Below, one piece after another: positions 592 to 55,610 of a stretch of 55,610 nucleotides of DNA. The notes beneath the pieces were generated by a model. The model worked only from the letters and a program-made list of their open reading frames with translations, had not been told where the DNA came from and did no database searches. Source of the stretch: a virus. Location of the stretch: positions 1 through 55,610 of the IMG/VR virus record IMGVR_UViG_3300032069_000013; one strand, given 5' to 3'. Within the stretch, counting starts at the first letter, position 1. Each line of letters starts with the position of its first letter. The translations under genes were made by a program, and so were the position numbers.

Positions 592-1629
592 ATGCTTCCT
601 GAAATTTTAAAAAAATTAAATCGTATATGTGTTAAAAACAGTAGTCTTCGTATACTAAATTACTACAAAGTAAAGAATGGAAAAGCAGAGTATACCGATT
701 TAGATAACTGGATTTTTACTAAATCAGATTATAAAGACGGAATATATTATAAATTCAAACCGGATCAAAAAGAACAGGCTATTTCTCCAGAAAGTGAAAT
801 GGAAGAATATCCCGTACTTACTCTGGAAGGAGAACCGAAAAAGGAATATGTTTTCAATATTCAAGAATTGAATGAAAATATCATTCTTTTTACTGCAAAA
901 GATGATACTCGTGATTGTCTTATGCAAGTATACATAAACAAAAAAAATGAGGCGGTTGCTACAAATGGATTTTACATATACATTCAAAAAATTTCTTGTA
1001 AAAAAGATTGCATAATTCCGGTATCATTTATACGATTGTGTAAAGTTTTTAATATCTCTGAAGTATACACAGTTGGAAAATGGATATACGGTATGCAAGA
1101 TGATATAGAAATCTATACTAAAATCACGGAAGAAATTTATCCAAATTATGAAGTTGCTATACCAAAACTTGAAAAATCTGAAATCACGGCGGAAGATTTT
1201 AGAAATTTTTCTTCAGCATTAATTGAGTGCAAAAATTACTGGAATGAAAAAACTAACATGATAATTTTCCATGATAACTGGCTGCTTGTTCGTAATGAGA
1301 AAAATAAACGAATGAAGATAAATCTGAATAAGAAAATATTTCCGACTCCGAGAGGATTTAATGGTAAATATTTTCTGGATATTATTTTAAAAACAGCGGA
1401 AGGTAATTTATATTACCATCCTGTAAGTAATCTTTCAATGGTGTATTTCAAATCTGAAAACTCATTAACCGGAATTATGCTATTAAGAATTGTTGAACCG
1501 TATGATCTAAAGGATTTTACTGAAATTTTTGTAACAGAGAAAAAGAAATCGGAAGAGAAAAATAAACCTGATTACAAGAAAATGTATTTTGAACTGCTGG
1601 CTAAATATAATAAAGAGGTCAAAAAATGA
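592..1629 (+). CDS. DNA polymerase III beta-like sliding clamp (345 aa)
   Basis: Length is close to the roughly 370 residues of bacterial DnaN. Three clamp landmarks are visible in order: an N-terminal element ILNYYKVKNGKAEYTDLDNW that parallels the first-domain strands with a dG.L..TATDLE pattern; AVATNGFYIYI, equivalent to the vATDGHRLA signature, followed by a IIPVSFI stretch; and EIYPNYEVAIPK, equivalent to the ieGxFPdYxxVIP signature. The third domain has NGKYFLDI and a C-terminal strand ending in MLLRI, the position of the usual lvMPvRl. A clamp encircles DNA and gives processivity. No clamp loader is seen, so the host loader may be used. ATG 592 follows a GTGAGG ribosome site. Confidence 0.75.
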   Translation: MLPEILKKLNRICVKNSSLRILNYYKVKNGKAEYTDLDNWIFTKSDYKDGIYYKFKPDQKEQAISPESEMEEYPVLTLEGEPKKEYVFNIQELNENIILFTAKDDTRDCLMQVYINKKNEAVATNGFYIYIQKISCKKDCIIPVSFIRLCKVFNISEVYTVGKWIYGMQDDIEIYTKITEEIYPNYEVAIPKLEKSEITAEDFRNFSSALIECKNYWNEKTNMIIFHDNWLLVRNEKNKRMKINLNKKIFPTPRGFNGKYFLDIILKTAEGNLYYHPVSNLSMVYFKSENSLTGIMLLRIVEPYDLKDFTEIFVTEKKKSEEKNKPDYKKMYFELLAKYNKEVKK

Positions 1630-1835
1630 AGACTAAAAAAGAAATCCTTCGGGAACAGGGTTATCAACCTGTAATTGGAAGGCCGTCAGTAGGGGATACA
1701 ATGTTATCTCCTTTAACAATACCTGTTGAAATAAAAAAGGCTCTTGATATTATCAAGAAAAAATATAAAAAATCTTTGCCGGAAATGAGACGACAAATAC
1801 TTTTAGAATATTTACAAAAAGAAAATATGCTATAA
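1626..1835 (+). CDS. Ribbon-helix-helix DNA-binding protein (69 aa)
   Basis: Residues about 28-66 have the MetJ/Arc/CopG pattern: a short beta strand (PLTIPVEI), helix A (KKALDIIKKKYKK), a turn, and helix B (LPEMRRQILLEYLQ). RHH proteins bind DNA as dimers through the strand and usually regulate transcription. The gene overlaps the clamp gene by the ATGA arrangement, so the two are translationally coupled. Its stop lies inside the left edge of quasi-palindromic element A (1826-1980), which makes autoregulation at that element a reasonable inference, not shown. The first 27 residues are basic and may be a flexible arm. Confidence 0.6.
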   Translation: MKTKKEILREQGYQPVIGRPSVGDTMLSPLTIPVEIKKALDIIKKKYKKSLPEMRRQILLEYLQKENML

Positions 1836-1980
1836 AAGTGCTATAACCGGCACCCCTGTATATATGCCTATTTTTTATCATGAAATTAAATGAATTTTTT
1901 TTATTATATAATAATATAAATAAAAGGAGTAAAAATAGGCATATATACAGGGGTGCCGGTTATAGCAAAAATATAGCAAT
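1826..1980 (+). repeat. Quasi-palindromic element A (36-bp perfect inverted repeat, AT-rich core)
   Basis: Bases 1840-1875 (starting GCTATAACCGGCACCCC) are the perfect reverse complement of 1931-1966. The symmetry continues outward less perfectly, so that each side carries two GCTATA half-sites separated by 5 bp. The 55-bp loop is almost pure A/T and contains ATTATATAAT, giving TATAAT on both strands. A diverged relative, element B, is at 12884-13059. The remaining intergenic bases to 2136 are very A/T-rich; I see no gene and only the AAGGAG site at 2126-2131. Possible roles: operator/promoter, replication origin or MITE-like element. Confidence 0.8.
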
Positions 1981-8613: not shown

Positions 8614-8771
8614 AAAGATTGCGAAGAATTGACAGGAGAATTTTAATCAAATCAATTGTCGAAACTATGAATTTACCGAAGGGTAAAAAGACATACAATT
8701 ATTTTACTAAACACCAGCTTATTGAGCTCAATCTTAAAGTGAAAAATTATGCCAAAACTATTTCAGCATGA
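8610..8771 (+). CDS. Small basic protein (53 aa)
   Basis: ATG 8610 overlaps the polymerase stop as ATGA, and the frame ends at TGA 8769-8771, 23 nt inside the primase gene. The product is strongly basic at its N-terminus (MKRLRRIDRRILIKSIVE) and predicted helical. The coupling to the polymerase stop is the same as for several certain genes in this genome, which is the main support. Function unknown; DNA binding is possible from the charge alone. Confidence 0.5.
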   Translation: MKRLRRIDRRILIKSIVETMNLPKGKKTYNYFTKHQLIELNLKVKNYAKTISA

Positions 8772-10881
8772 AAATTTGACAATCTTCAAACAACATGGTT
8801 TTGTTCCAGTAGGTGAATTATCGGATGGAAAACATGTTCATGGTAATTGTATTTTCTGTGGTAGTTATTCACAGAAACTAAAAACATTTAAAAATTCTTT
8901 CTATGTAAATGTTGATATAAAAGCCTGGGATTGTAAAATTTGTTCTCTGGAAGGAGGATACCAGACTTTTTTAAACGAATTATATAAATTCGGAATACAG
9001 AACTTTACAGAAGAAAGAGTAAAAGTCTTATCTGAAAACCGTCAAATACCAAAAAAAATATTGAGATCGCATGGCGTAGGTTATAATCCTGTAATAGACA
9101 AATATTATGTTCCCGTATTCAATCTGAGTCATCAAATTATCGATCTTAAGATATTTGATATAAAAGCAAAAGAAAAATTCAGATATGTTTCTTCCAGCGG
9201 TGCAAAAAAATCTTTGTATTTTGGGAAGAACGTGCCGGATTTACAAAAGAAAATTTATTATCTGGTAGAAGGCGAATGGGATCGAATGGTGTTCAAATCA
9301 GTTATTGATGAATTGAAAATAAAAGCTGAAGTTTTTGGACTGCCCGGAGCACTATCTATGTGCATGGGCTGGATAGATTATTTTAGGGAAAAGGATGTAA
9401 TTGTAATTCTGGATAATGATTTTGACAGAGAAGTCAATGGAAGGCTTATCGAAGGAGCCGGTAAAAAGGGATGTAAAAAAATTTACGGTTTACTGAACGG
9501 TAATTGTAAATCAATCAAATTTCTCCACTGGGAAGAAAGTGGTAAACTGGGAAATGGTTACGATATTCGTGATTTATATATTGACAACAAGAAAGATTCA
9601 AAAAAAATTATTGAGTTTATTAATAAACATTTGTATGACTATCCGCAGGGATTCGAGGAAAAAGAACTGGAAATAATCAGAAAAGAGAATAGCAAACTTC
9701 CGATTATTTACGCTGGAAAAGGATGTACCATAGGAAAAGTTTATGAGGTTTTTAATAAATATTTAAAAATGGAAAATAACGATTTGATTGACATAGTGAC
9801 CTCTACGATAATAGCAAACCGCATGCCGGGTTCGCCAGTATGGTTATTTCTGGTCGGCGCTTCAGGCAGTGGAAAGAGTGAAGTTTCGATGTCTTTGTCA
9901 GGCCTATCTTTTGTGGAGTCCATATCTTCGCTTTCTAACCATGTGTTAATATCAGGGATGAACTATCGAAATCACCATGACCCGTCTCTAATACCGAAAC
10001 TAAATGGACGTGTTCTCAATATAAAAGATTTTACAACGATTATAGGTATGGATAAGACCTCTCAATCAGGCATTGTTACAACGCTGAGGGACGCGTTTGA
10101 CGGGCATTGTGCAAAGCCCTTTGGTAACGGTCGTATGGTACGTTATGAGTCTAAATTCGGCATTATAGCGGGTGTTACGCAGGTTATAGACCATTTCTCG
10201 GAGAATTTGTCTTCTCTGGGAGAAAGATTTATCAGATATGAGATAAAAATCGAAAAAAGTATCGCTGGAGAACAGGCTGTTTTGCTTAAAGTCATGAATA
10301 ATCTTTTTGGAGAAATCAAGGAAAAAATGAAGCTGGAATTGAAGGAAATTATGTCCGAATTTCTCAATTATCCTTTTGTCCTGACCTTTTTTCCAGAGGA
10401 GGAAGCCCGTATAAAAGTGGCTACAATAGCACAATTGACCGGACTTCTCAGAGGTTCGGTATTACGTGATGGACGCACAGGAGATATAATTTACAAGCCG
10501 ATGATCGAAAGCCCTACACGACTGACCGAGCAATTTTTAAAACTATTTATTGCTTTACATGTGATACATGGAGAGAATACGACTAATCTGAAATACCTGG
10601 ATATTCTAAGAGACGTATCTTTGAGCACGATGTCCGCTAATTATCGGGATATTATTAACGTGATTATAAACGAAGAAAAAGATATTTCATTCGAGGATAT
10701 ACAGAAAAAAATCGGATTACCTTCTCCTACCGTAAGAAAAAATATGGATAATCTTGTCATACTCGGAGCACTTGACAAGATACAATTAGATAAAGTAAAT
10801 AATTTTGGCGCGAGATATAAATATAAATTATCGAATCGTTTGAGAATATTGAATCAGAAATCCGGAGTATTTACTAAATAA
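8749..10881 (+). CDS. Primase-helicase (zinc-binding, TOPRIM, P-loop ATPase; 710 aa)
   Basis: The N-terminus has a CHC2-type zinc site (C34, C37, C62, C65). The TOPRIM domain follows with the acidic EGEWD and the DNDFD pair (about residues 180-230). The second half has Walker A GASGSGKS near residue 370 and a Walker B-like VLNIKDF. The C-terminal 70 residues resemble a winged helix (SFEDIQKKIGLPSPTVRKNMDNLVILG). It would synthesise RNA primers and may unwind DNA at the fork with the upstream polymerase. The helicase class of the ATPase part is uncertain; it is not a clear DnaB. Confidence 0.82.
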   Translation: MPKLFQHENLTIFKQHGFVPVGELSDGKHVHGNCIFCGSYSQKLKTFKNSFYVNVDIKAWDCKICSLEGGYQTFLNELYKFGIQNFTEERVKVLSENRQIPKKILRSHGVGYNPVIDKYYVPVFNLSHQIIDLKIFDIKAKEKFRYVSSSGAKKSLYFGKNVPDLQKKIYYLVEGEWDRMVFKSVIDELKIKAEVFGLPGALSMCMGWIDYFREKDVIVILDNDFDREVNGRLIEGAGKKGCKKIYGLLNGNCKSIKFLHWEESGKLGNGYDIRDLYIDNKKDSKKIIEFINKHLYDYPQGFEEKELEIIRKENSKLPIIYAGKGCTIGKVYEVFNKYLKMENNDLIDIVTSTIIANRMPGSPVWLFLVGASGSGKSEVSMSLSGLSFVESISSLSNHVLISGMNYRNHHDPSLIPKLNGRVLNIKDFTTIIGMDKTSQSGIVTTLRDAFDGHCAKPFGNGRMVRYESKFGIIAGVTQVIDHFSENLSSLGERFIRYEIKIEKSIAGEQAVLLKVMNNLFGEIKEKMKLELKEIMSEFLNYPFVLTFFPEEEARIKVATIAQLTGLLRGSVLRDGRTGDIIYKPMIESPTRLTEQFLKLFIALHVIHGENTTNLKYLDILRDVSLSTMSANYRDIINVIINEEKDISFEDIQKKIGLPSPTVRKNMDNLVILGALDKIQLDKVNNFGARYKYKLSNRLRILNQKSGVFTK

Positions 10882-11237: not shown

Positions 11238-11259
11238 AAAACTAAATAAATATATTCAC

Positions 11260-11317
11260 AGCAAAGCTGAGCACAGCGAAGCAAAGCTGAGCGTAGCAAA
11301 GCAAAGCATAGCAAAGC
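11260..11317 (+). repeat. AGCNN pentanucleotide repeat tract 1
   Basis: Thirteen AGC triplets occur at exact 5-nt spacing, with the two intervening bases varying (AA, TG, AC, GA, GT, AT). The tract ends AGCAATGTATCTTAAATC and is followed by the ribosome site of the gene at 11354. A second tract with the same borders is at 11934-12001. It lies in the presumed 5' untranslated region. Confidence 0.9.
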
Positions 11318-11353
11318 AATGTATCTTAAATCTTAAACTAAAGGAATAGTATT

Positions 11354-11923
11354 ATGAAAACTTCAAAGATAAATGTTACTTTACAAGGGATAGCGCCTAT
11401 ATTGTTCAATAGATTTGTGGATTACTCGAAAGAAGTCAGACCGCCGGAGCAGAAATTATATATAGATAGTCAAAATACGATTGTATTGCCGTCTCTGAAT
11501 ATAGATGCGTTTTTGTTCGGAGAGTTTCCTACCGGATGCGCGAAGACTTTCGAAGGTAAAAAGGGAAAGGATTATCTGAGGATAGGTCAAAGTCATGTTT
11601 TCGTGGAACCTGATTTGATTCCATTTACAGATGGGAAGAAGGAAATAAAATATAACGGGTTCGGTAAACAGTTGATGCTGCATGATTGGGGTTCTCCGAG
11701 AGTGAAGAATGGTTCTCTGAGCGTAAAACAGGAAAGGATTGTAAGACCTATGCTCAATCTGCCGTGGGAATTGACATTCTCTATTAATCTGATTGAGAAT
11801 AGTCTTATAAATTCAACCAAGCTGGAAAACTGGTTTACTCTGGGAGGAATCATGCTGGCTTTCGGATCATGGAGGCCGAAATATGGCAGATTTACAATAA
11901 AGAAATGGGAAGAAACTAAATAA
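11354..11923 (+). CDS. Conserved-type phage protein, possibly RAMP-like fold (189 aa)
   Basis: The N-terminus KINVTLQGIAPILFNRF and the C-terminal GGIMLAFGSWRPKYGRFTI give a beta-strand start and a glycine-rich end resembling ferredoxin-fold RAMP proteins (Cas7-like), but this is a pattern impression only. The family is otherwise unassigned. It starts with an AAAGGAA site after AGCNN tract 1 and ends just before tract 2, so it is framed by the two repeats. A role near replication or recombination is inferred from position. Confidence 0.65.
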   Translation: MKTSKINVTLQGIAPILFNRFVDYSKEVRPPEQKLYIDSQNTIVLPSLNIDAFLFGEFPTGCAKTFEGKKGKDYLRIGQSHVFVEPDLIPFTDGKKEIKYNGFGKQLMLHDWGSPRVKNGSLSVKQERIVRPMLNLPWELTFSINLIENSLINSTKLENWFTLGGIMLAFGSWRPKYGRFTIKKWEETK

Positions 11924-11933
11924 ATATATTCGC

Positions 11934-12001
11934 AGCGTAGCTTAGCCGAGCACAGCCGAGCAGAGCACAGCCAAGCGGAGCATAGCATAGCGAAGCAGAG
12001 C
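11934..12001 (+). repeat. AGCNN pentanucleotide repeat tract 2
   Basis: Fourteen AGC triplets at exact 5-nt spacing with variable intervening dinucleotides (GT, TT, CG, AC, AG, CA, GG, AT, GA). The preceding TAAATATATTC and following AGCAATGTATCTTAAATC are shared with tract 1, so the leaders were duplicated while the NN positions diverged. It precedes the ParB-like gene at 12044. Confidence 0.9.
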
Positions 12002-12043
12002 AATGTATCTTAAATCTTAAATCTTAAACTAAAGGAGTAGCAT

Positions 12044-12883: not shown

Positions 12884-13059
12884 ATTGCTATATTTTTGCT
12901 ATAACCGGCACCCCTGTATATATGCCTATTTTTTTTTTCTTTCATGAAAGTATATGATTTTTTTTATCATATATTATATAATTAATGATAAGAAAAAGAA
13001 AAATAGTAAATGTATAGACCATATATACAGGGGTGCCGGGTATAGCACTTTTATAGCAT
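12884..13059 (+). repeat. Quasi-palindromic element B (relative of element A)
   Basis: GCTATAACCGGCACCCC and its continuation to 12924 recur as a near-perfect inverted copy at 13021-13046. Paired GCTATA half-sites flank both sides and an A/T-only core contains ATTATATAAT. The right arm carries a roughly 12-bp insertion relative to element A. It sits in the gene-free interval 12719-13132, which otherwise holds a TGACA-AGA-TGTCA dyad at 12714-12726, A/T-rich DNA, and further TATAGCA copies at 13103-13118 just before the next gene's ribosome site. Confidence 0.75.
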
Positions 13060-13132
13060 TTTTCAGCATTTTTTAAAAAAATGTAGTATATTTAGTGTAT
13101 AACAGTTTTATAGCATTTTAAGGAGATAAAAG

Positions 13133-13411
13133 ATGGAAAAGATTAAAATAAGAATTATCGGATGTACTGATAAAAACTGGTGGTATCATGATCGAATAGG
13201 AGAAACATTTTTTACGAGTGAAGTATCCGCACTGGGAAATTGCTTTGTAAATCCTTCAGGTTTCTGCGATCTTACAATCGGTATTGTTAAACATGGTGAT
13301 TATGAAGTTGTAAAGGAAGTTGAATATACCAGGAATACTTTCTTTATGTTTAAATTCCTTTACAACTTCATAATCACTATGTACAAAAATAAAAATCACG
13401 AGATGCAGTAA
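13133..13411 (+). CDS. Small protein of the WYxDxIG type, 3' end altered (92 aa)
   Basis: The motif WWYHDRIGETFFTSE near residues 16-30 matches a small phage protein family with a WYadkIGexFxV start and a final short strand; the role of that family is unknown to me. The last 40 residues lie in a DNA inverted repeat (13292-13318 against 13355-13381, 26 of 27 bases) and look non-native. A second fragment with WYADKIGKVF follows in another frame at 13413. The ATG has an AAGGAG site. Confidence 0.6.
   Translation: MEKIKIRIIGCTDKNWWYHDRIGETFFTSEVSALGNCFVNPSGFCDLTIGIVKHGDYEVVKEVEYTRNTFFMFKFLYNFIITMYKNKNHEMQ
13292..13381 (+). repeat. 27-bp inverted repeat inside the 13133 gene
   Basis: The segment starting CATGGTGATTATGAAG at 13292 (27 nt) is repeated in reverse complement at 13355-13381 with one mismatch, separated by 36 nt. 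It can form a long hairpin. Because it lies in coding sequence and does not resemble a terminator, a replication template switch is the simplest explanation. Confidence 0.85.
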
Positions 13412-16162: not shown

Positions 16163-17067
16163 AACTAGAATTAAAAACCTGTGTATATTGTAAACAATCT
16201 TTGCCGATAAATTTCTTTAATCGAAATCGGCTTCCTGGATTACGGTGGGCTTGGTGTAAAGAATGTGAGAAAAAGTATAATTTTTACGAGAACAGAAAAG
16301 GAAAAGAATTTTCTCATATACTCAGTTTCTCTGGCGGAAAAGATTCTACTGCAATGCTTCTGCTCATGCTCGAAAAGAAAATGAGGATAGATGCAGTTGT
16401 TTATTTTGATTGCGGCTCTTTTGAGTTTCCTCAGATGGCCGAGCACATCGAACAGGTAGAAAAATATACGGGAATGGAAATAATTAAAATAAAACCGGAA
16501 CATGACTTTGGCTGGTTACTGAGTAATAATCCTAATCCTGGTTCAAAGAAACAGGAAAATGGTTGGCCGACATCCTTGATGCGTTGGTGTACTATGATGA
16601 AAATAAATGGTATCAGGCGTTATATGCGTTTATATAGGCCATATTACCTGTATATCGGATATACTGTGGACGAAGTTGAAAGAATAAATAAGGCAGCGGA
16701 TCATAGCCATAATTTAATATTCAGCCATAAACAGATAAATAAATATCCACTCTATGACTGGAATTTGTCTGAAAAAGATTGTTTAAATTACTGTTTTAAA
16801 AAGGGTTTTCATTGGAATGGATTGTATAAACATTTTAATAGAGTGAGTTGTTTCTGTTGTCCTTTACAAAGAAAAGAAGACCTAAAAAAGTTATATAAAT
16901 ACTATCCAGAATTATACAATCAAATTAAAGAATGGAATAAATTAACCTGGAATCATTTTAAGAATGATCCGGACATTTTTAATAAAATAGAATCGGAGAT
17001 CAGGTATGGCAAAGATTTCACGAGAAGTATATGTAGAAGCAAAAAATCAGAAACTACCATTAAGTAA
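16159..17067 (+). CDS. PP-loop ATPase of the PAPS reductase/DndC type with N-terminal zinc finger (302 aa)
   Basis: The N-terminal 40 residues carry two CxxC pairs (C8, C11, C33, C36). The PP-loop is SGGKDS (58-63), followed by VVYFDCGSFEFP, RWCTMMK and the late CFCCPLQ cysteine cluster. This is the N-type ATP-pyrophosphatase fold used by PAPS reductase, by DndC in DNA phosphorothioation and by related phage proteins. Substrate unknown. ATG 16159 overlaps the ParB stop as ATGA and is preferred to the upstream in-frame ATG at 16141. Confidence 0.8.
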   Translation: MKLELKTCVYCKQSLPINFFNRNRLPGLRWAWCKECEKKYNFYENRKGKEFSHILSFSGGKDSTAMLLLMLEKKMRIDAVVYFDCGSFEFPQMAEHIEQVEKYTGMEIIKIKPEHDFGWLLSNNPNPGSKKQENGWPTSLMRWCTMMKINGIRRYMRLYRPYYLYIGYTVDEVERINKAADHSHNLIFSHKQINKYPLYDWNLSEKDCLNYCFKKGFHWNGLYKHFNRVSCFCCPLQRKEDLKKLYKYYPELYNQIKEWNKLTWNHFKNDPDIFNKIESEIRYGKDFTRSICRSKKSETTIK

Positions 17068-17176
17068 AGTAGCAGAAATGAATGGAGTTACCAGACAAGC
17101 GGTATTTCAGATGTTTAAAAAATATGAAAATGAGGATAAGCTAAAATTGATAAAAAAGTCTTCTAAAAAAGTATAG
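17006..17176 (+). CDS. Small helix-turn-helix protein (56 aa)
   Basis: The core LSKVAEMNGVTRQAVFQMFKKY is a clear helix-turn-helix, with the turn at MNGVT and the recognition helix after it. The tail is lysine-rich. ATG 17006 has GGAGATCAGGT upstream; the gene overlaps the end of the PP-loop gene by 62 nt in another frame. It is the last gene before the packaging module and ends within the TATAGCA site, so it could regulate late genes. Too short for a confident class. Confidence 0.6.
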   Translation: MAKISREVYVEAKNQKLPLSKVAEMNGVTRQAVFQMFKKYENEDKLKLIKKSSKKV

Positions 17177-17238
17177 CAGTTTTATAGCATCGTCATTACA
17201 TACAAATTTACATATAGATGTTTATTTTATATGTAAAT
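17170..17238 (+). promoter_or_regulatory. Region upstream of the small terminase gene: TATAGCA pair and a start-codon hairpin
   Basis: TATAGCA occurs at 17172-17178 and 17183-17189, separated like the pairs in elements A and B. Downstream, ATTTACATATA (17206-17216) pairs perfectly with TATATGTAAAT (17228-17238), which includes the first two bases of the terminase ATG at 17237. No Shine-Dalgarno is visible. The hairpin could limit initiation; no conventional promoter can be assigned with confidence. Confidence 0.5.
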
Positions 17239-25669: not shown

Positions 25670-25917
25670 ATCCTGAGATAATCGATGCGGTTACAGTAGC
25701 TATGAGCGGTGTGATTGTTCTTACTTCTACAATAGTAATTGACAGATACAGAACTAAAAAATCGAATGGTGATAGAAAATCTGAAAACGCCGGAAGAGAA
25801 AAAGGTTTGTGTGATGCACATATAAATTTACTCAGTACTATTACCGAAATGAAAACTGATATTCGATGGCTTGTTTCGGAGATAAAAACCAATGGTGGAA
25901 AAAATAAATTTCATTGA
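25660..25917 (+). CDS. Small single-span membrane protein (85 aa)
   Basis: ATG 25660 has a GGAAGGTGG ribosome site and lies 10 bases inside the previous gene. Residues 10-28 (AVTVAMSGVIVLTSTIVI) form one transmembrane helix; the rest is charged and ends with a helix LLSTITEMKTDIRWLVSEIK. Topology resembles small holins or inner-membrane spanins, but also membrane anchors for glycosyltransferases. In a window with no other clear lysis cassette it is a candidate holin only by inference. Confidence 0.55.
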   Translation: MSVNPEIIDAVTVAMSGVIVLTSTIVIDRYRTKKSNGDRKSENAGREKGLCDAHINLLSTITEMKTDIRWLVSEIKTNGGKNKFH

Positions 25918-26641
25918 ACTAGAAATATTAGACCCAATGCTTAAAGCTAGATGGGGAAAATTGCGCAGTCTCCCTGCTGTGACTGCTCATGTATTGATAA
26001 AGCAAAGAAAGGCCGTAAAAATAAAAACAGAGTCGGCAAAGACTAAAGAAAACTCTTTACAAAAAGAAAGTTTTACATATAACAATAATATTCCGGTGTT
26101 CATTCCCTGGGCTGATGATAAAAATATAGGAAAAAGTTACAACAAAATAATGAATATTATCGACGAGTGGGTGCTTTTTATAGACCATGACATTCTTTTA
26201 GTAAATCCTTTATGGCATACTATTTGTAAACGAGCTATTGATAAGGTAGGTAAAAATGCCGGATGGATTACATGTTTTACAAATAGAATATACTGTAAAG
26301 CTCAATTATATTCCGGTGCGGATAATGCAAGTGATGACATACGTTATCACAGAGACATTGCCAGAAGTATCTATATTAAAAACGAAAGAAAAATACTGGA
26401 TATTTCTAATAGAAAAGAACAATTATCCGGTTTTTTTATTTTGACAAATAAAGAAGCATGGAAAAAGGCAGGCGGATTCAAAAAAGAAGGATTTTTTACT
26501 GTAGACAATCAATACTCGACTGATTTAAAAAGGGCTGGCTATAAATTATATCTTATGGCCGATCTTTATGTATACCATTCATATTTCAGAGATTCTGTAA
26601 ATAACTCTTTTGAAAGGAGCGTTCGATGCGAGCGAGATTAA
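25892..26641 (+). CDS. GT-A (family 2-like) glycosyltransferase (249 aa)
   Basis: Residues 50-130 fit the GT-A fold: NIPVFIPWADDKNIGKSYNKIM, then VLFIDHDILLV with a D-x-D metal motif, and later EQLSGFFILTNKEAWKKAGGF...DNQYSTDLKRAGYKLYLM, the usual acceptor-side segment. The start overlaps the previous gene by 26 nt. It would add a sugar from a nucleotide donor within the island's glycan pathway. The substrate is unknown. Confidence 0.75.
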   Translation: MVEKINFIELEILDPMLKARWGKLRSLPAVTAHVLIKQRKAVKIKTESAKTKENSLQKESFTYNNNIPVFIPWADDKNIGKSYNKIMNIIDEWVLFIDHDILLVNPLWHTICKRAIDKVGKNAGWITCFTNRIYCKAQLYSGADNASDDIRYHRDIARSIYIKNERKILDISNRKEQLSGFFILTNKEAWKKAGGFKKEGFFTVDNQYSTDLKRAGYKLYLMADLYVYHSYFRDSVNNSFERSVRCERD

Positions 26642-26868
26642 AGGAAGATATGGAATTACTGGTTGGATCGGGTACGATAAGAAATAAAGAAAAAAGAACT
26701 GTTTTCTTTAATTCTTCTATATCAATTAAACTGGATAAGGGTACTATTTTTGACGTAGAGGAATATGTAAATAACAGTTATCATGTTATTATCAAGTTTA
26801 GTAAAGGCGTAACTTACTTATTTACAGTTACGAAAGATTTATTCACTGAGATTTCCGGCAAGGAATAA
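26626..26868 (+). CDS. Hypothetical small beta protein (80 aa)
   Basis: A GAAAGGAG site precedes the ATG, and the stop overlaps the start of the next gene (TAATG). The protein is short and beta-rich (VFFNSSISIKLDKGTIFDVEEYVNNSYHVIIKF), with no recognised motif. It lies between two glycosyltransferases and is presumably translated with them. Confidence 0.55.
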   Translation: MRARLKEDMELLVGSGTIRNKEKRTVFFNSSISIKLDKGTIFDVEEYVNNSYHVIIKFSKGVTYLFTVTKDLFTEISGKE

Positions 26869-27800
26869 TGAATACTAAAACTATAGTTTACTTTAAACAT
26901 GGTATCGGTAATCTGATAATGTTTACTCCGGCAATACAGGCTATTGCTAGTATGGATGAGTCAAAACAAGTGGATATTTGTCTTGACTCGGAATGGAATG
27001 ATTATCGTAGACCTGCTTTTGATGATTTTTTCAGTAAATGGAGTCTGATACAGAATATTGTAAACTATCCGAAAGATGACTTTACAAAAGAATATAAAAC
27101 CTGGTTTTATACCGGACATTCCGAACATTCAAAAGCTTTAGATATTTTCAAAGAAAGAAACAGATTGCAGATGATTGATCCTGATTGGTCTTCCGGTATA
27201 CATGAAATTTTCTATTATATGAATATGATAAGTAAATATGGTTATCATGGTTCTTTACCGGATCAGTATATTCCTATAACCGATAAAATCAATATAGATA
27301 AAAATGGAAAATATCTGATAGGAATATGTAATGGCACATATGCCGGAAACATGAAAACCGTTAAGCAGTGGTTTTATTTTAACGAACTCGTAAAGCTTCT
27401 TAAATACTATTACAATTGTCAAGTGGTAAAATTAGGTTATCGAGACGAACTAATGGAAGTAAACACTGATTTTGATTTTGTAAACAAACTCAGTTTAACT
27501 GAAACAGCTTACGTAATAAAACAACTTGATTTATTCATCACGAACGATACAGCCCTAATGCATGTAGGAGATGCTTTACAGACCAATATGATAGTTCTTT
27601 GGGGCGGTTCGATGTGTTCCAAAAACGGAGCCTTAAGCAAAAACGCTTACAATCTGAAATTAAATTTACCTTGTCAGCCGTGCCAACGTACCGGTATGTT
27701 TTATAATTGCAATGATCCGATATGTCTAAATAATCTTACAGTCGGTGATGTAATGGTTATTGTAAAGGACAAGTTGAAAAATGATAGAAGTATCTTTTGA
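26868..27800 (+). CDS. GT9 heptosyltransferase-like protein (310 aa)
   Basis: The N-terminus IVYFKHGIGNLIMFTPAIQAI matches the GIGD.v.mTPai start of GT9 enzymes. The C-terminal lobe has NDTALMHVGDALQTNMIVLWGG, the conserved donor-site region (ndTG.mHlAaAl..p.ialfG), and PCQPCQRTGMFYNC, a common cysteine-containing tail. GT9 members include ADP-heptose LPS heptosyltransferases and related enzymes. In a phage this suggests a glycan with heptose-like or rare sugars, though the exact substrate cannot be read. Confidence 0.82.
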   Translation: MNTKTIVYFKHGIGNLIMFTPAIQAIASMDESKQVDICLDSEWNDYRRPAFDDFFSKWSLIQNIVNYPKDDFTKEYKTWFYTGHSEHSKALDIFKERNRLQMIDPDWSSGIHEIFYYMNMISKYGYHGSLPDQYIPITDKINIDKNGKYLIGICNGTYAGNMKTVKQWFYFNELVKLLKYYYNCQVVKLGYRDELMEVNTDFDFVNKLSLTETAYVIKQLDLFITNDTALMHVGDALQTNMIVLWGGSMCSKNGALSKNAYNLKLNLPCQPCQRTGMFYNCNDPICLNNLTVGDVMVIVKDKLKNDRSIF

Positions 27801-28539
27801 TGCTTTTTATAAAGAAGTTATTGATGTATTTAAAAATCCTCACCCGTGGGCACATATACGCTATGGTGACGGAGAAGGGATCGTATTAAGTTATCCCGAA
27901 TTTACTAGCAAGCAGAAAAGCGAATCTCGCTGGAAAAAATGGCTCGGAACGGTTCCTTCGGATATGTCTTTTCTTGCAGAGAAAATAAGAGAAAGTATAA
28001 GATACGCTGATATAGTCGGACTTCCCTGCAAAAGACATCAAAATGTAAATCAAGACTGGAGAAACGTAAAGAAATTCATAATATCCAATTATAAACTGCT
28101 TTCCAGCGATAGAAAGGTCTGCTGCATGGATTGGACTGTAGATTTACAACGTAATAATCTATACGATAATCTTTTGAATAATAAGAAAAAGATTTATTAT
28201 GTCTCTTCCAGGGATATGACTTCAATTTTTAAAAATAGATTCAAGATAAAAAATGTAATTGGATTTCATCTTTCTTTACAGCATAATCCAAAAATAGGAG
28301 AAAGTTTGACTGACATTCCTCATTATCCTGTTATGTATAATCAGATCATTAATTTTATCAATACACAAGATATTAAAAATCAGATATTTCTTATAGGAGC
28401 GGGAGGATTAGGAAAAATTTATTGCATGGAAGTGAAAAAGGCCGGGGGCATAGCTTTAGATATTGGTTCTTTGTTTGATGGCTGGAAAGGATATGTAACT
28501 CGATCATATCTAAAAGACGGGCATAATTACAAATTATGA
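27781..28539 (+). CDS. GT-D fold glycosyltransferase, copy 1 (252 aa)
   Basis: Begins after a 40-residue lead with HIRYGDGEGIVL, the DGE motif of GT-D (DUF1792-like) glycosyltransferases. It continues with ADIVGLPC and ends with FLIGAGGLGKIYC and GGIALDIGSLFDGWKGY, shared with the next gene. The two genes are tandem paralogues (same motif order, low identity outside motifs). Enzymes of this fold transfer glucose and other sugars to glycoprotein or polysaccharide acceptors. It overlaps its upstream neighbour by 20 nt and its downstream one as ATGA. Confidence 0.7.
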   Translation: MIEVSFDAFYKEVIDVFKNPHPWAHIRYGDGEGIVLSYPEFTSKQKSESRWKKWLGTVPSDMSFLAEKIRESIRYADIVGLPCKRHQNVNQDWRNVKKFIISNYKLLSSDRKVCCMDWTVDLQRNNLYDNLLNNKKKIYYVSSRDMTSIFKNRFKIKNVIGFHLSLQHNPKIGESLTDIPHYPVMYNQIINFINTQDIKNQIFLIGAGGLGKIYCMEVKKAGGIALDIGSLFDGWKGYVTRSYLKDGHNYKL

Positions 28540-29291
28540 ATACGGTTGATATAAAAACAATCGAATATAAATTGATTGAAGTATTGAAAAATGAAAATCC
28601 TTTTTCTTTACTACGTCTTGGAGACGGAGAGTTTCAGATTCTTAAATATCCTAAATACATAAGTAAAGAAAATTTTTATGATAGATTTGAACGCTGGTTT
28701 GATATATCCGATATAAGTTATCAGGAACTTTTCAATATAAGAAATAGTTTGAACTCGTCTTATTTGCGAGCAAATATTCTCGGTATTCCTTCTCCGGCGG
28801 AACAACGAGGATATTCTAAATGGGTCAATTTCGATAAGTTGATGAATGAGTTTTCTTTACTTGAAGATAAAATCTATTTTGCTAACTATGATATTTGTAA
28901 ATTGAATTTTAAAAGGTTACTGTCTTATGTAAAGAAAATATTTATTATTACTTGTCATGATCTGAGAAAGCAGATAAAAAATACCTTTAATTTAAAAGAC
29001 GTATATTTACTGCAATGTCCACGAGAAAAATTTAATTATCATGACAAGAACTGGAAAAATAAAAATAATACGGTAAATCATTATCATGAGAAATTTACTA
29101 GTATAAATAAATCAATACAAGAAAATATTGAAAGAGGTTCTTTATATCTGGTAGGTGCCGGAGGTTTAGGAAAAATATATTGTAATACAATTAAGAATTG
29201 TCAAGGCATTGCTTTAGATATAGGTTCGGTATTCGATGCTTGGGCAGGTATAGATAGCAGACCGTATTTAAAAAGTATAGCGAAATTATAA
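28536..29291 (+). CDS. GT-D fold glycosyltransferase, copy 2 (251 aa)
   Basis: Paralogue of the preceding gene: LLRLGDGEFQIL (DGE motif), NILGIPSPAEQRGY, LYLVGAGGLGKIYC and GIALDIGSVFDAWAGI in the same order and spacing. The middle region differs, so the copies have probably specialised for different acceptors or donors. It is coupled to copy 1 by ATGA. Confidence 0.7.
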   Translation: MNTVDIKTIEYKLIEVLKNENPFSLLRLGDGEFQILKYPKYISKENFYDRFERWFDISDISYQELFNIRNSLNSSYLRANILGIPSPAEQRGYSKWVNFDKLMNEFSLLEDKIYFANYDICKLNFKRLLSYVKKIFIITCHDLRKQIKNTFNLKDVYLLQCPREKFNYHDKNWKNKNNTVNHYHEKFTSINKSIQENIERGSLYLVGAGGLGKIYCNTIKNCQGIALDIGSVFDAWAGIDSRPYLKSIAKL

Positions 29292-29295
29292 CAAT

Positions 29296-30015
29296 ATGAC
29301 TCTGTATGTAAAAATAAATCTGATGTTACCGACTTATCATAGAGTAAAGAATGGTAAGTTAGTAGCTTTTATGGAATCTCTTTATAAGACAGTAAAGGAT
29401 CAATCTAAAATTTGTATTACCTTTCTTATAAATAAAGATGACAAGGAAACAGCGGAATATCTGGATACATTGACAATAGAAAAACAAGTCCTGATAAACG
29501 AGTCCATAGAAAAACCGCATTTAGGAAAATTTTACAACAGAATTTACAATGAAACAAAATTTAACCAGGATAGTACGATAGTTTCCATGCTCGGTGATGA
29601 TATGGAATTTAGAACGTCAGGATGGGAACAAAAAATAATAGACAAAATAAACGAGATACAGGGTATAGGTTTTATTTATTGCAACGACATGAATCAGGAA
29701 AAACGACTTCCGGTTAATCTATTTACAACAAGGAAATTTGTAAAATTAACAAAATACCCATTTATGTGTGAATGGTTCGCAGCGGATTATATAGATACGG
29801 TATGGAAATATGTAGGAGAATACCTGCATTGTGGATATTATCTAACCGATGTTATTATGAAGCATAATCATTATACCGTTACAATGGAAAAACGGGACGT
29901 CACTTCGATTCGTTTACATCAAGTAAAGTTTATAAGAAATAAAGGAAATCGCCTTGTAAAGAATTATGCAAACTGTATTATAAGAAATCTCATGAAAAAG
30001 GGAATGAGGCCATGA
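29296..30015 (+). CDS. GT-A glycosyltransferase (239 aa)
   Basis: INLMLPTYHRVKNGKLVAFMESL is a GT2-type start, and STIVSMLGDDMEFRTSGWEQKI contains the DDxE donor/metal motif. FIYCNDMNQEKRLPVNLFTTRKF and a later CGYYLTDVIM complete the fold. It starts 4 nt after the previous stop and overlaps the methyltransferase start as ATGA. Substrate unknown. Confidence 0.72.
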   Translation: MTLYVKINLMLPTYHRVKNGKLVAFMESLYKTVKDQSKICITFLINKDDKETAEYLDTLTIEKQVLINESIEKPHLGKFYNRIYNETKFNQDSTIVSMLGDDMEFRTSGWEQKIIDKINEIQGIGFIYCNDMNQEKRLPVNLFTTRKFVKLTKYPFMCEWFAADYIDTVWKYVGEYLHCGYYLTDVIMKHNHYTVTMEKRDVTSIRLHQVKFIRNKGNRLVKNYANCIIRNLMKKGMRP

Positions 30016-30602
30016 TTAGATGGATAGGTTCAAAATATGGCGGATGGAATATTGATATAGATAAAATTCCTGAAAAAGGCACGATCATTTCTGCAGGATT
30101 AGGCAATGATTTTTCTTTTGAAGAGGAATTAATAAGACTAAAAGGTTGCTTTATTATCGGTATTGATCCGACAAACTTGACTTATAAGACAATGAATAAG
30201 AAAAAATTGAAAAATTTCTGGTTAATCAGAAACGCTTTATATGTCAATAATGGTATTATTTCTATGACAAAAGCCGATACTAACGGAGCTTCTATTTATG
30301 ACAATAAACCTAAAACGAAAGTTGCTTGTATAACTCTGGAAGAGTTGCTCAAAACATATAAAGACATATCGGTTTTAAAAATGAATATCGAAGGAGCAGA
30401 ATATAGTATAATAAATAATTTACATGAATTGAGTATATCACAGGTTTTAATCAGGTTTCATCACAGAAAACCTAATGTTCCTTTTGAATATTCTGATAGT
30501 GTAAACTGTATTAAAAAATTGAAATCTTTCGGATATAAAGCAAACTATATGTCATCTTATAAAGACCCTAAAATAGATTTTGAGGTACTCTTTATCTTAT
30601 GA
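30012..30602 (+). CDS. FkbM-type methyltransferase (196 aa)
   Basis: IISAGLGNDFSFEEELI is the SAM-binding glycine-rich loop, CFIIGIDPT the acidic strand 2, and VLKMNIEGAEYSIINNL the conserved D/N-x-E-G-A-E motif of FkbM methyltransferases. These O-methylate sugars on polysaccharides and glycopeptides, fitting the surrounding glycan genes. It may cap or tune the glycan. Both ends overlap neighbours as ATGA. Confidence 0.8.
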   Translation: MIRWIGSKYGGWNIDIDKIPEKGTIISAGLGNDFSFEEELIRLKGCFIIGIDPTNLTYKTMNKKKLKNFWLIRNALYVNNGIISMTKADTNGASIYDNKPKTKVACITLEELLKTYKDISVLKMNIEGAEYSIINNLHELSISQVLIRFHHRKPNVPFEYSDSVNCIKKLKSFGYKANYMSSYKDPKIDFEVLFIL

Positions 30603-38935: not shown

Positions 38936-40057
38936 ATGCCACTGCCAACCAGATCAGAATTACTTACTTTAGATTATTACTTTAGGGGTGAACCCTTTGT
39001 AATGATTCCGGCAGGTGCATCCGACGACCTGATGGGACTGGATTACTATTGGCGAGGAGAGCCGTTTTGTATTCCGTTGACGGCAGAAGGAACTTCAATT
39101 ACCGGAACCTGCAATACAGATTTACTCATGCTCACTACTGATATATCAGGAACTCAAACTATAAAAGCTATTTTAACTCCTAATTTGTTAATATTGACTA
39201 CCGATATATCGGGAACACAGACTATTAAAGCAATAGTCGATTTTGATTTATTAATATTATTAGCGGATATTCTCGGTAAGCAAACTATAACAGGCACCAG
39301 TAATTCCGATTTATTAATATTAACTACAGATATACATGGTACACAGACTATTGTGGGCGTTCTTTCTCCAGAGTTATTGATCTTTTTTACGTCAATCTCT
39401 GGAAAACAGATAATTACCGGAACTATCAATCCTGATTTATTAATATTTACAACTGATATAAATGGAAAGTTAGCAATTACAGGAATAAGCAATCTTGATC
39501 TTTTATTACTTACTACTGATACACATGGAAAACAAACTATTGTCGGAACTATTAATCCTGATCTTTTACCATTGACAACTAATATAAACGGAAAACAAAC
39601 GATTACCGGAATATCTGATATTGACTTATTGATTTTACGGATGTTTGCTACTGATGGTGTAGTACCTATATCGGGTATAATGGATATAGATATACTATTG
39701 CAAACAACCGATATTCTCGGTAAGCAAGCCATAACAGGTACCAGTAATCCTGATTTATTAGTTTTAACTACAGATATAAACGGTAAACAAATGATTAATG
39801 GAATTTCTAATATTGACTTATTAATCTTAAAAATGTTTGCTTCTAATTATTTAGTATTGATTACCGGAATTTGTGATATTGACTTATTGATGTTAAAAAC
39901 GGATGCTGACGGTGTTTTAAGAGCGTTTTATGATTATATTAATGTTGGTTCAGAATTAAGTAAAGAAACTAGAACAAATTCTTTATTGAATAAACAATCT
40001 CGTTTGAGATCGGCAATTATAAGACAACTTATTTTACAAGGAAAAATACATGGATGA
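38936..40057 (+). CDS. Tandem 21-residue repeat protein (373 aa)
   Basis: After two copies of a LDYYxRGEPF motif (residues 12-22 and 36-45), about 13 repeats of 21 residues follow, consensus ITGTSNPDLLILTTDINGKQT. Two repeats (9 and 12) have the variant LLILRMFA or LLILKMFA and one extra residue. The C-terminal 45 residues are a basic helical tail. A regular, short beta repeat of this kind would form a solenoid or prism on the virion. Function unknown. The first nucleotides share the G+C of the upstream genes; the repeats are A/T-rich. Confidence 0.75.
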   Translation: MPLPTRSELLTLDYYFRGEPFVMIPAGASDDLMGLDYYWRGEPFCIPLTAEGTSITGTCNTDLLMLTTDISGTQTIKAILTPNLLILTTDISGTQTIKAIVDFDLLILLADILGKQTITGTSNSDLLILTTDIHGTQTIVGVLSPELLIFFTSISGKQIITGTINPDLLIFTTDINGKLAITGISNLDLLLLTTDTHGKQTIVGTINPDLLPLTTNINGKQTITGISDIDLLILRMFATDGVVPISGIMDIDILLQTTDILGKQAITGTSNPDLLVLTTDINGKQMINGISNIDLLILKMFASNYLVLITGICDIDLLMLKTDADGVLRAFYDYINVGSELSKETRTNSLLNKQSRLRSAIIRQLILQGKIHG

Positions 40058-53118: not shown

Positions 53119-53125
53119 CCTATTA

Positions 53126-53190
53126 TATCTTCAATAAAATCAATGACTTAGGTCATACACCTTTGTATCTTCAATAAAATCAATAACTTA
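53126..53190 (+). repeat. Tandem 25-bp direct repeats
   Basis: TATCTTCAATAAAATCAAT at 53126 and the same with one mismatch (TGACTTA against TAACTTA) at 53166; start-to-start spacing is 40 bp, about four helical turns. They lie in the intergenic region before the pentapeptide gene and upstream of its promoter. Such repeats can be operator sites. Confidence 0.85.
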
Positions 53191-53209
53191 CGTAGTGTAC
53201 ATTTTTTAG

Positions 53210-53264
53210 TTTTTTTATCAAAAATGTGATCGTTTTTGATAAAAAAAATGTATATTATATAATA
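53210..53264 (+). promoter_or_regulatory. Sigma-70-like promoter with -35 in a palindrome
   Basis: TTGATA at 53237-53242 and TATAAT at 53259-53264 are separated by 16 bp. The -35 lies in the right arm of a perfect 15-bp palindrome (53210-53224-like left arm TTTTTTTATCAAAAA; right arm at 53234-53248). A repressor or activator could bind it. It would drive the pentapeptide locus. The stem is not followed by a T tract, so it is not a forward terminator. Confidence 0.65.
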
Positions 53265-53299
53265 AGAAAACAACATAAACCTAAACAGAGGAGTGAGTT

Positions 53300-53767
53300 A
53301 TGAAAATTACACAGTATCAGTTATTAAAATCAGGTGTTGACAAATGGAACACCTGGAGAAAAGAAAACCCCGGTGTTAAGATTGACCTGACAGATGCTGA
53401 CTTGACACGTGCTAACCTATCACACGCTGACCTGACAGATGCTGACCTGACACGTGCTAACCTACCATACGCTGACCTGACACGTGCTAACCTGACACGT
53501 GCTAACCTGATAGATGCTAACCTGGCATGTACTAACCTGACACGTGCTGACCTGACACGTGCTGACCTGTCATGTACTAACCTGACATATGCTAACCTGA
53601 TAGATGCTAATCTGACAGATGCTAACCTGACACGTGCTAACCTGACAGATGCTGACTTGACACGTGCTAATCTGACAGATGCTAACCTGACACGTGCTAA
53701 CCTATCACACGCTGACCTGACAGATGCTAACCTGTCACACGCTAACCTGACAGATGCGCTACTTTAA
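53300..53767 (+). CDS. Pentapeptide-repeat protein (155 aa)
   Basis: Residues 1-33 (ITQYQLLKSGVDKWNTWRKENPGVKID) form the conserved head of a common pentapeptide family, followed by about 24 pentapeptides with consensus A(D/N)LTX to residue 152. Only a small set of unit types is used (LTDA, LTRA, LSHA, LSCT, LPYA, LIDA, LACT, LTYA). The protein would be an acidic beta-helix. Function unknown; DNA mimicry toward gyrase or restriction enzymes is a known role for relatives. GAGGAGT ribosome site; own promoter upstream. Confidence 0.85.
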   Translation: MKITQYQLLKSGVDKWNTWRKENPGVKIDLTDADLTRANLSHADLTDADLTRANLPYADLTRANLTRANLIDANLACTNLTRADLTRADLSCTNLTYANLIDANLTDANLTRANLTDADLTRANLTDANLTRANLSHADLTDANLSHANLTDALL

Positions 53768-55480: not shown

Positions 55481-55531
55481 TCAAAATTCACAAGTCCGAA
55501 CAATTTTTAAACCTAAACAGAGGAGTGAGTT

Positions 55532-55610
55532 ATGAAAATTACACAGTATCAGTTATTAAAATCAGGTGTTGACAAATGGAACACCTGGAGAAAAGAAAAC
55601 CCCGGTGTTA
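55532..55610 (+). CDS. Pentapeptide-repeat protein, 5' part (continues at position 1)
   Basis: The first 26 codons are identical in sequence to those of the gene at 53300, including the upstream ribosome site (GAGGAGTGAG). The window ends within codon 27, whose first base is A; joined to bases 1-2 (AC) this is Asn, followed by LTDAD. Hence the gene is probably continuous across the ends of the map (about 123 aa). Confidence 0.8.
   Translation, partial: MKITQYQLLKSGVDKWNTWRKENPGV

Follow-up and report, generated by a model that had tools for sequence, protein, structure and literature searches.

Introduction

In phage P4, the cis-acting sequences fall into two distinct regions, ori and crr, and operators of Arc/CopG-type ribbon-helix-helix (RHH) repressors are built of half-sites placed one helical turn apart. 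In Bacillus phage SPP1, about 13 kb separate the origins oriL and oriR, of which one is situated in an extended intergenic region; each combines direct repeats with an AT-rich unwinding element, and the origin-binding protein is gp38 (PMC6316719). The essential putative origin of pRN1 is a stem-loop of 100 bp (stem, 21 nt; loop, 58 nt) that is served by a winged-helix primase/helicase, and its authors proposed the same stem-loop origin scheme for Bordetella phage BIP-1 (PMC4234260). A small repressor gene is cotranscribed with the replication gene of pRN1, and in P4, the winged helix of the alpha protein mediates binding to origin repeats (PMC4234260).

Here, we analysed a window of 55,610 bases that constitutes one whole virus record (IMGVR_UViG_3300032069_000013) of an unclassified phage. 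An initial annotation had reported twin related elements, A and B, bracketing the replication block, and both proved to be real.

Results

The ends of the record join in frame: an ORF read from 55532 runs unbroken through base 1 to a TAA near base 292, and the ORF across the ends (55508-55610 plus 1-292) encodes a pentapeptide-repeat protein. The record thus probably represents a complete genome, either circular or circularly permuted. A second pentapeptide-repeat gene (53276-53767) and the first have 103 identical bases at their starts, and the complete circle was probably cut inside this repeat. Just upstream of the second gene, the interval 53119-53299 contains a 40-bp sequence repeated in tandem (80%), together with a palindrome around TTTTTTATCAAAAATGTGATCGTTTTTGATAAAAAA. 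A greedy ORF call over the whole genome placed 3 of 71 ORFs on the minus strand, the longest of about 70 aa. The gene at 38936-40057 contains 63-nt periodic repeats (21-residue units) at 39120-39907, and two glycosyltransferase-like genes and one methyltransferase-like gene (PHROG matches) are located between the head and tail genes, at 25892-30602.

No relative usable for comparison was found in the viral contigs, genome contigs or phage records searched. DNA and pattern searches of the viral contigs for the arm sequence, the palindrome layout and the operator word described below returned no relative, and neither did searches of the genome contigs for the arm and the terminase; the homologues of the arm sequence that the initial annotation had proposed looking for were thus found in neither collection. 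When the SNF2 helicase, DNA polymerase, portal, terminase and primase/helicase were compared with viral contigs, the sole relative was one helicase, at 22% identity. Among phage records, the first 25 kb had no DNA match and element A had weak AT-rich matches only; the polymerase, portal and terminase had only distant protein matches, and the primase/helicase had no tblastn match. Rfam likewise returned no match.

Elements A (1827-1979) and B (12885-13059) occupy the two largest non-coding gaps of the genome, of 301 and 414 bp, respectively. The interval between them encodes an SNF2-type helicase, a uracil-DNA glycosylase-like protein, a Sak4-like annealing protein, a family A DNA polymerase, a primase/helicase-like protein and a ParB-like protein, and a sliding-clamp-like gene lies upstream of A. 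Two non-coding arrays (11238-11353 and 11924-12043) flank the gene at 11354-11923 on both sides; they consist of 5-bp NNAGC units in which AGC is constant and the first two bases vary, each array being opened by ATATATTC[AG]CAGC and closed by AGCAATGTATCTTAAATCTTAAA...ACTAAAGGA.

Element A is an imperfect palindrome (86% over 65 bp per arm, with 55 nt between). Its left arm (1839-1875, plus strand) is the perfect complement of its right arm (1931-1967, plus strand), so the arms are indeed perfect, as first annotated, with a measured length of 37 bp rather than 36 bp. They form the longest perfect inverted repeat within 300 bp genome-wide. Element B has perfect arms of 20 bp (12905-12924 and 13020-13039, both plus strand; 86% over 44 bp). 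Among perfect inverted repeats within 300 bp, those of A, of 13296-13377 (23 bp) and of B are the longest, followed by one of 15 bp at 53210 and a background of at most 12 bp. The 23-bp stretch belongs to a 47-nt inverted repeat (85%, 13282-13391) inside gene 13133-13411, adjoining B. The 20-mer CCGGCACCCCTGTATATATG, the word common to all four arms, occurs exactly four times in the genome, in agreement with the earlier statement that A and B share arms; allowing up to 3 mismatches revealed no further copy elsewhere in the genome. Furthermore, the right side of A and the left side of B are identical over 52 bp, and a change in an arm of B has no compensating change in the partner arm. A protelomerase telomere was set aside on account of the 55-95 nt spacer between the arms.

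The AT-rich cores of A (1876-1930) and B (12934-13019) align in direct orientation, as had been noted (score 53, reached by 0 of 2000 shuffles), compared with a score of 32 for the reverse-complement alignment (reached by 3.5% of shuffles). The four most AT-rich 60-bp windows genome-wide (2055-2114, 1986-2045, 1869-1928 and 12927-12986) all lie in A, beside A or in B, an observation to be read against the generally AT-rich composition of intergenic DNA. To the right of A, the stretch at 1986-2117 (93% AT over 2013-2112) has the lowest predicted duplex stability of the genome and is a candidate unwinding element; 12927-13026, in B, is the second most easily melted 100-bp region. Clustered repeats (of six TATAGCA pairs in the genome, A and B hold four) and an adjacent AT-rich unwinding element (the four lowest-stability 60-bp windows), as expected of an iteron-type origin, were thus both found. 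GC skew is positive genome-wide with no switch at A or B and so lends no support to an origin there. The TATAAT hexamers reported on both strands of each core are present but uninformative, and a promoter reading of them does not rise above background: 13 such pairs within 20 bp occur in this AT-rich genome, and in core A a promoter scan listed no more than one weak match.

The outer half-sites of A and B are parts of a 19-bp word, TATAGCAnnnnTATAGCAW, composed of two direct half-sites 11 bp apart. With at most one mismatch, the word is found six times in the genome versus 0.04 expected, and six copies were reached by 0 of 100 shuffles. Element A carries putative operator/iteron pairs on its left (TATAGCACTTTTATAGCAT, 1827-1845, minus strand) and right (TATAGCAAAAATATAGCAA, 1961-1979, plus strand), as does B on its left (TATAGCAAAAATATAGCAA, 12885-12903, minus strand) and right (TATAGCACTTTTATAGCAT, 13041-13059, plus strand); all four point outward. 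Two further copies, absent from the initial annotation, stand without arms. The fifth (TATAACAGTTTTATAGCAT, 13098-13116, plus strand) lies against the Shine-Dalgarno sequence of the gene at 13133. The sixth (TATAGCAGTTTTATAGCAT, 17172-17190, plus strand) is found in another of the larger gaps (17068-17236), where it overlaps the stop codon of a small helix-turn-helix (HTH) gene and precedes the terminase and late genes, the gene at 17237 preceding the terminase. A palindrome, TTTACATATA...TATATGTAAA, follows the sixth copy at about 17208-17238. Three operon starts (2137, 13133 and 17237) hold all six copies, and the A-left and 17172 copies each overlap the stop codon of a gene for a small probable DNA-binding protein (69 and 56 aa, respectively).

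The half-sites are constant, whereas the spacers between them vary and are unpaired across the palindrome. Read outward, A left equals B right and A right equals B left, confirming the crosswise match described earlier: a CTTTT-type spacer is present at A left and B right, and an AAAAA-type spacer at A right and B left. The arm-less copies at 13098 and 17172 carry the T-type spacer GTTTT. Constant half-sites, unpaired varying spacers and the uncompensated change in B favour contact by a protein over hairpin pairing, although this comparison covers two elements only and is therefore a weak test of conserved base pairing. The inner operators of A are separated by 115 bp and those of B by 137 bp; the difference of 22 bp corresponds to two turns, so that helical phase is kept, and half-sites one helical turn apart are the layout expected for a cooperatively bound site. 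Similarity outside the outer half-sites (TGTAAA, 12-15 bp out, at A left, A right and B left) was not significant by unanchored alignment.

Three phage proteins are candidates for binding this word. The gene at 1626-1835 (plus strand) encodes a small basic protein of 69 aa whose C-terminal half is possibly CopG/RHH-like. The initial annotation had placed an RHH gene against A, and the gene does end inside the A-left operator; the RHH assignment itself is weak (PHROG CopG, E = 0.042; no Pfam RHH_1 match even at E <= 10). A monomer model of this product (pLDDT 74) predicted helices at residues 34-47 and 51-65 and had no fold match. The alternative is the HTH protein of 56 aa encoded at 17006-17176 (plus strand), whose gene ends inside the sixth copy; it matched NCBIfam putative DNA-binding protein and YlxM-type HTH families with E values of 2e-5 to 1e-4, below the curated cut-offs, and a PHROG transcriptional repressor (E = 0.0043). 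The third, a candidate initiator, is the 710-aa primase/helicase-like protein (8749-10881, plus strand; PHROG primase/helicase, E = 1.2e-8, residues 48-292). By eye, it contains a zinc ribbon, the TOPRIM-like motifs VEGEWD and ILDNDFD and the P-loop GASGSGKS of an ATPase, and a C-terminal fragment matched HTH_24 (E = 4e-4, just under the Pfam cut-off), pointing to a winged helix. AlphaFold, run without relatives, gave no usable model of this protein (mean pLDDT 33).

Discussion

Elements A and B resemble oriL and oriR of SPP1 in being two similar combinations of repeats and AT-rich DNA, about 13 kb apart there on the circular map and 11 kb apart here, with one element in a long intergenic gap and nearly all transcription from one strand in both genomes. 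In contrast to SPP1, family scans recognised no gp38, gp39 or gp40 homologue here, and the repeats form long palindromes and also stand alone at other operon starts. Like pRN1 and BIP-1, the phage combines a large stem-loop (about 100-150 bp) with a nearby replication protein whose C-terminus is a predicted winged helix. However, the primase of pRN1 is archaeo-eukaryotic, whereas the motifs here are TOPRIM-like, and pRN1 has one element without iterons, compared with two that have iterons at the stem base. The primase/helicase with its C-terminal winged helix recalls P4 alpha, in which this domain binds origin repeats, but differs in having no detected sequence similarity to phage proteins; the candidate initiator, which might be related to SPP1 gp38 or P4 alpha, has this winged helix, weak domain matches and no tblastn match among phage records. 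Finally, short half-sites repeated at 11 bp beside a possible RHH gene are reminiscent of Arc/CopG operators, from which A and B differ by their additional arms and core, the RHH assignment here being putative. The sequences of A and B were found nowhere else in the collections searched, the kind of arrangement is known from some phages, and there is precedent for each piece of an origin model.

We tentatively favour, with somewhat less than even confidence, the interpretation that A and B represent a replication-control module present in two copies and acting as paired origins, and that the lone copies of the word are operators. The enrichment of the word, its fixed half-sites and positions, the kept helical phase, the palindromic arms, the location in the largest gaps, the AT-rich minima, the replication genes in between and the precedents above are the observations from which we infer protein binding, the likely binders, and origin and operator function. 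In each module, inverted arms would enclose a readily melting AT-rich core, with outward-pointing TATAGCA pairs on both sides. One of the three candidates (the RHH-like protein, the HTH protein or the winged-helix primase/helicase) would bind the half-site pairs; occupancy of the two sides and of the arms, where a second protein might act, would help to open the core or the adjoining AT-rich DNA, onto which the replisome encoded between A and B could be loaded. The lone pairs at 13098 and 17172 would serve as operators, such that origin use and the switch between replication, middle and late genes may respond to one protein.

A purely transcriptional role is nearly as likely as the origin reading. 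The TATAGCA pairs would then be operators of one regulator at the three operon starts, with A and B as reinforced operators whose two sides, possibly joined by looping, enclose a promoter located in the AT core, and with no part in replication; we regard this as a serious possibility, though held with less confidence than paired origins. Each of the six sites is found where an operon begins, essentially all genes of the phage lie on one strand, the 13098 copy abuts a ribosome-binding site, and genes for small DNA-binding proteins end within two sites. Because the copies at 13098 and 17172 have neither arms nor core, transcription control explains these two sites better than an origin does. However, it leaves unexplained why long inverted arms and lowest-stability cores are confined to A and B and why these are symmetrical on both sides when the neighbouring genes all run one way, and the promoter scan found no strong sigma-70-like promoter in the cores. 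Alternatively, transcripts of A and B might fold into very stable hairpins with a role in protection, processing or termination of the replication mRNA. The predicted folds are strong (-82.3 and -73.6 kcal/mol, z = -16.5 and -13.0), but any long palindrome folds that well, the outer spacers are unpaired, the changes in B are uncompensated, and the word recurs twice without a hairpin; moreover, no T-run follows the stem, so that this is no intrinsic terminator. We therefore consider a hairpin function improbable.

Inversion at the arms, as proposed in the initial annotation, is slightly less probable still. Site-specific or homologous recombination between the arms could flip the cores or the 11-kb block, and inverted arms identical over up to 52 bp across 10.9 kb, together with direct cores and crosswise spacers, are compatible with it. 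However, each element has one spacer of each kind, so the crosswise order is one of two possible orders, a single two-state character of 4-5 nt in an A/T tract and hence weak evidence for inversion. Since the T-type spacer is also present at the arm-less sites, spacer type belongs to the binding site and is no recombination scar. By our reasoning, had direct copies undergone a single 11-kb inversion, T/T and A/A elements would be expected, in contrast to what is observed; the spacers are accounted for only if one core was flipped inside one element, and nothing else calls for such a flip. The record gives a single orientation. An invertible element would be expected to have a cognate recombinase, and Phage_integrase and Resolvase profiles (tyrosine and serine recombinases) had no match in the phage genome, while control genomes gave matches; an enzyme of the host might still serve. 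Given the weakly informative spacer order and the lack of an integrase or resolvase match, we did not adopt inversion. The least probable reading is that of a mobile, MITE-like palindrome inserted twice: the presence in non-coding DNA of two close copies, each with inverted ends, would fit, but inspection revealed no target-site duplication, no transposase was recognised among the proteins scanned, no copy was found elsewhere in the viral or bacterial collections, and the ends consist of an operator that also occurs on its own.

Taken further, the paired-origin reading leads to a joint scheme that we regard as rather unlikely, in which one protein, through the same 19-bp word, would open two symmetrical origins and switch three gene blocks, and in which occupancy of A and B, or looping between the phase-matched palindromes, would couple DNA copying to the early-late switch. 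If the favoured reading of paired origins and operators is correct, the elements would correspond to the replication origins and master operator of a phage lineage without close relative in the databases searched. They would also provide a clear case of an origin and a regulon using one site word, and would indicate that one structure can be both a large-palindrome origin and an iteron origin.
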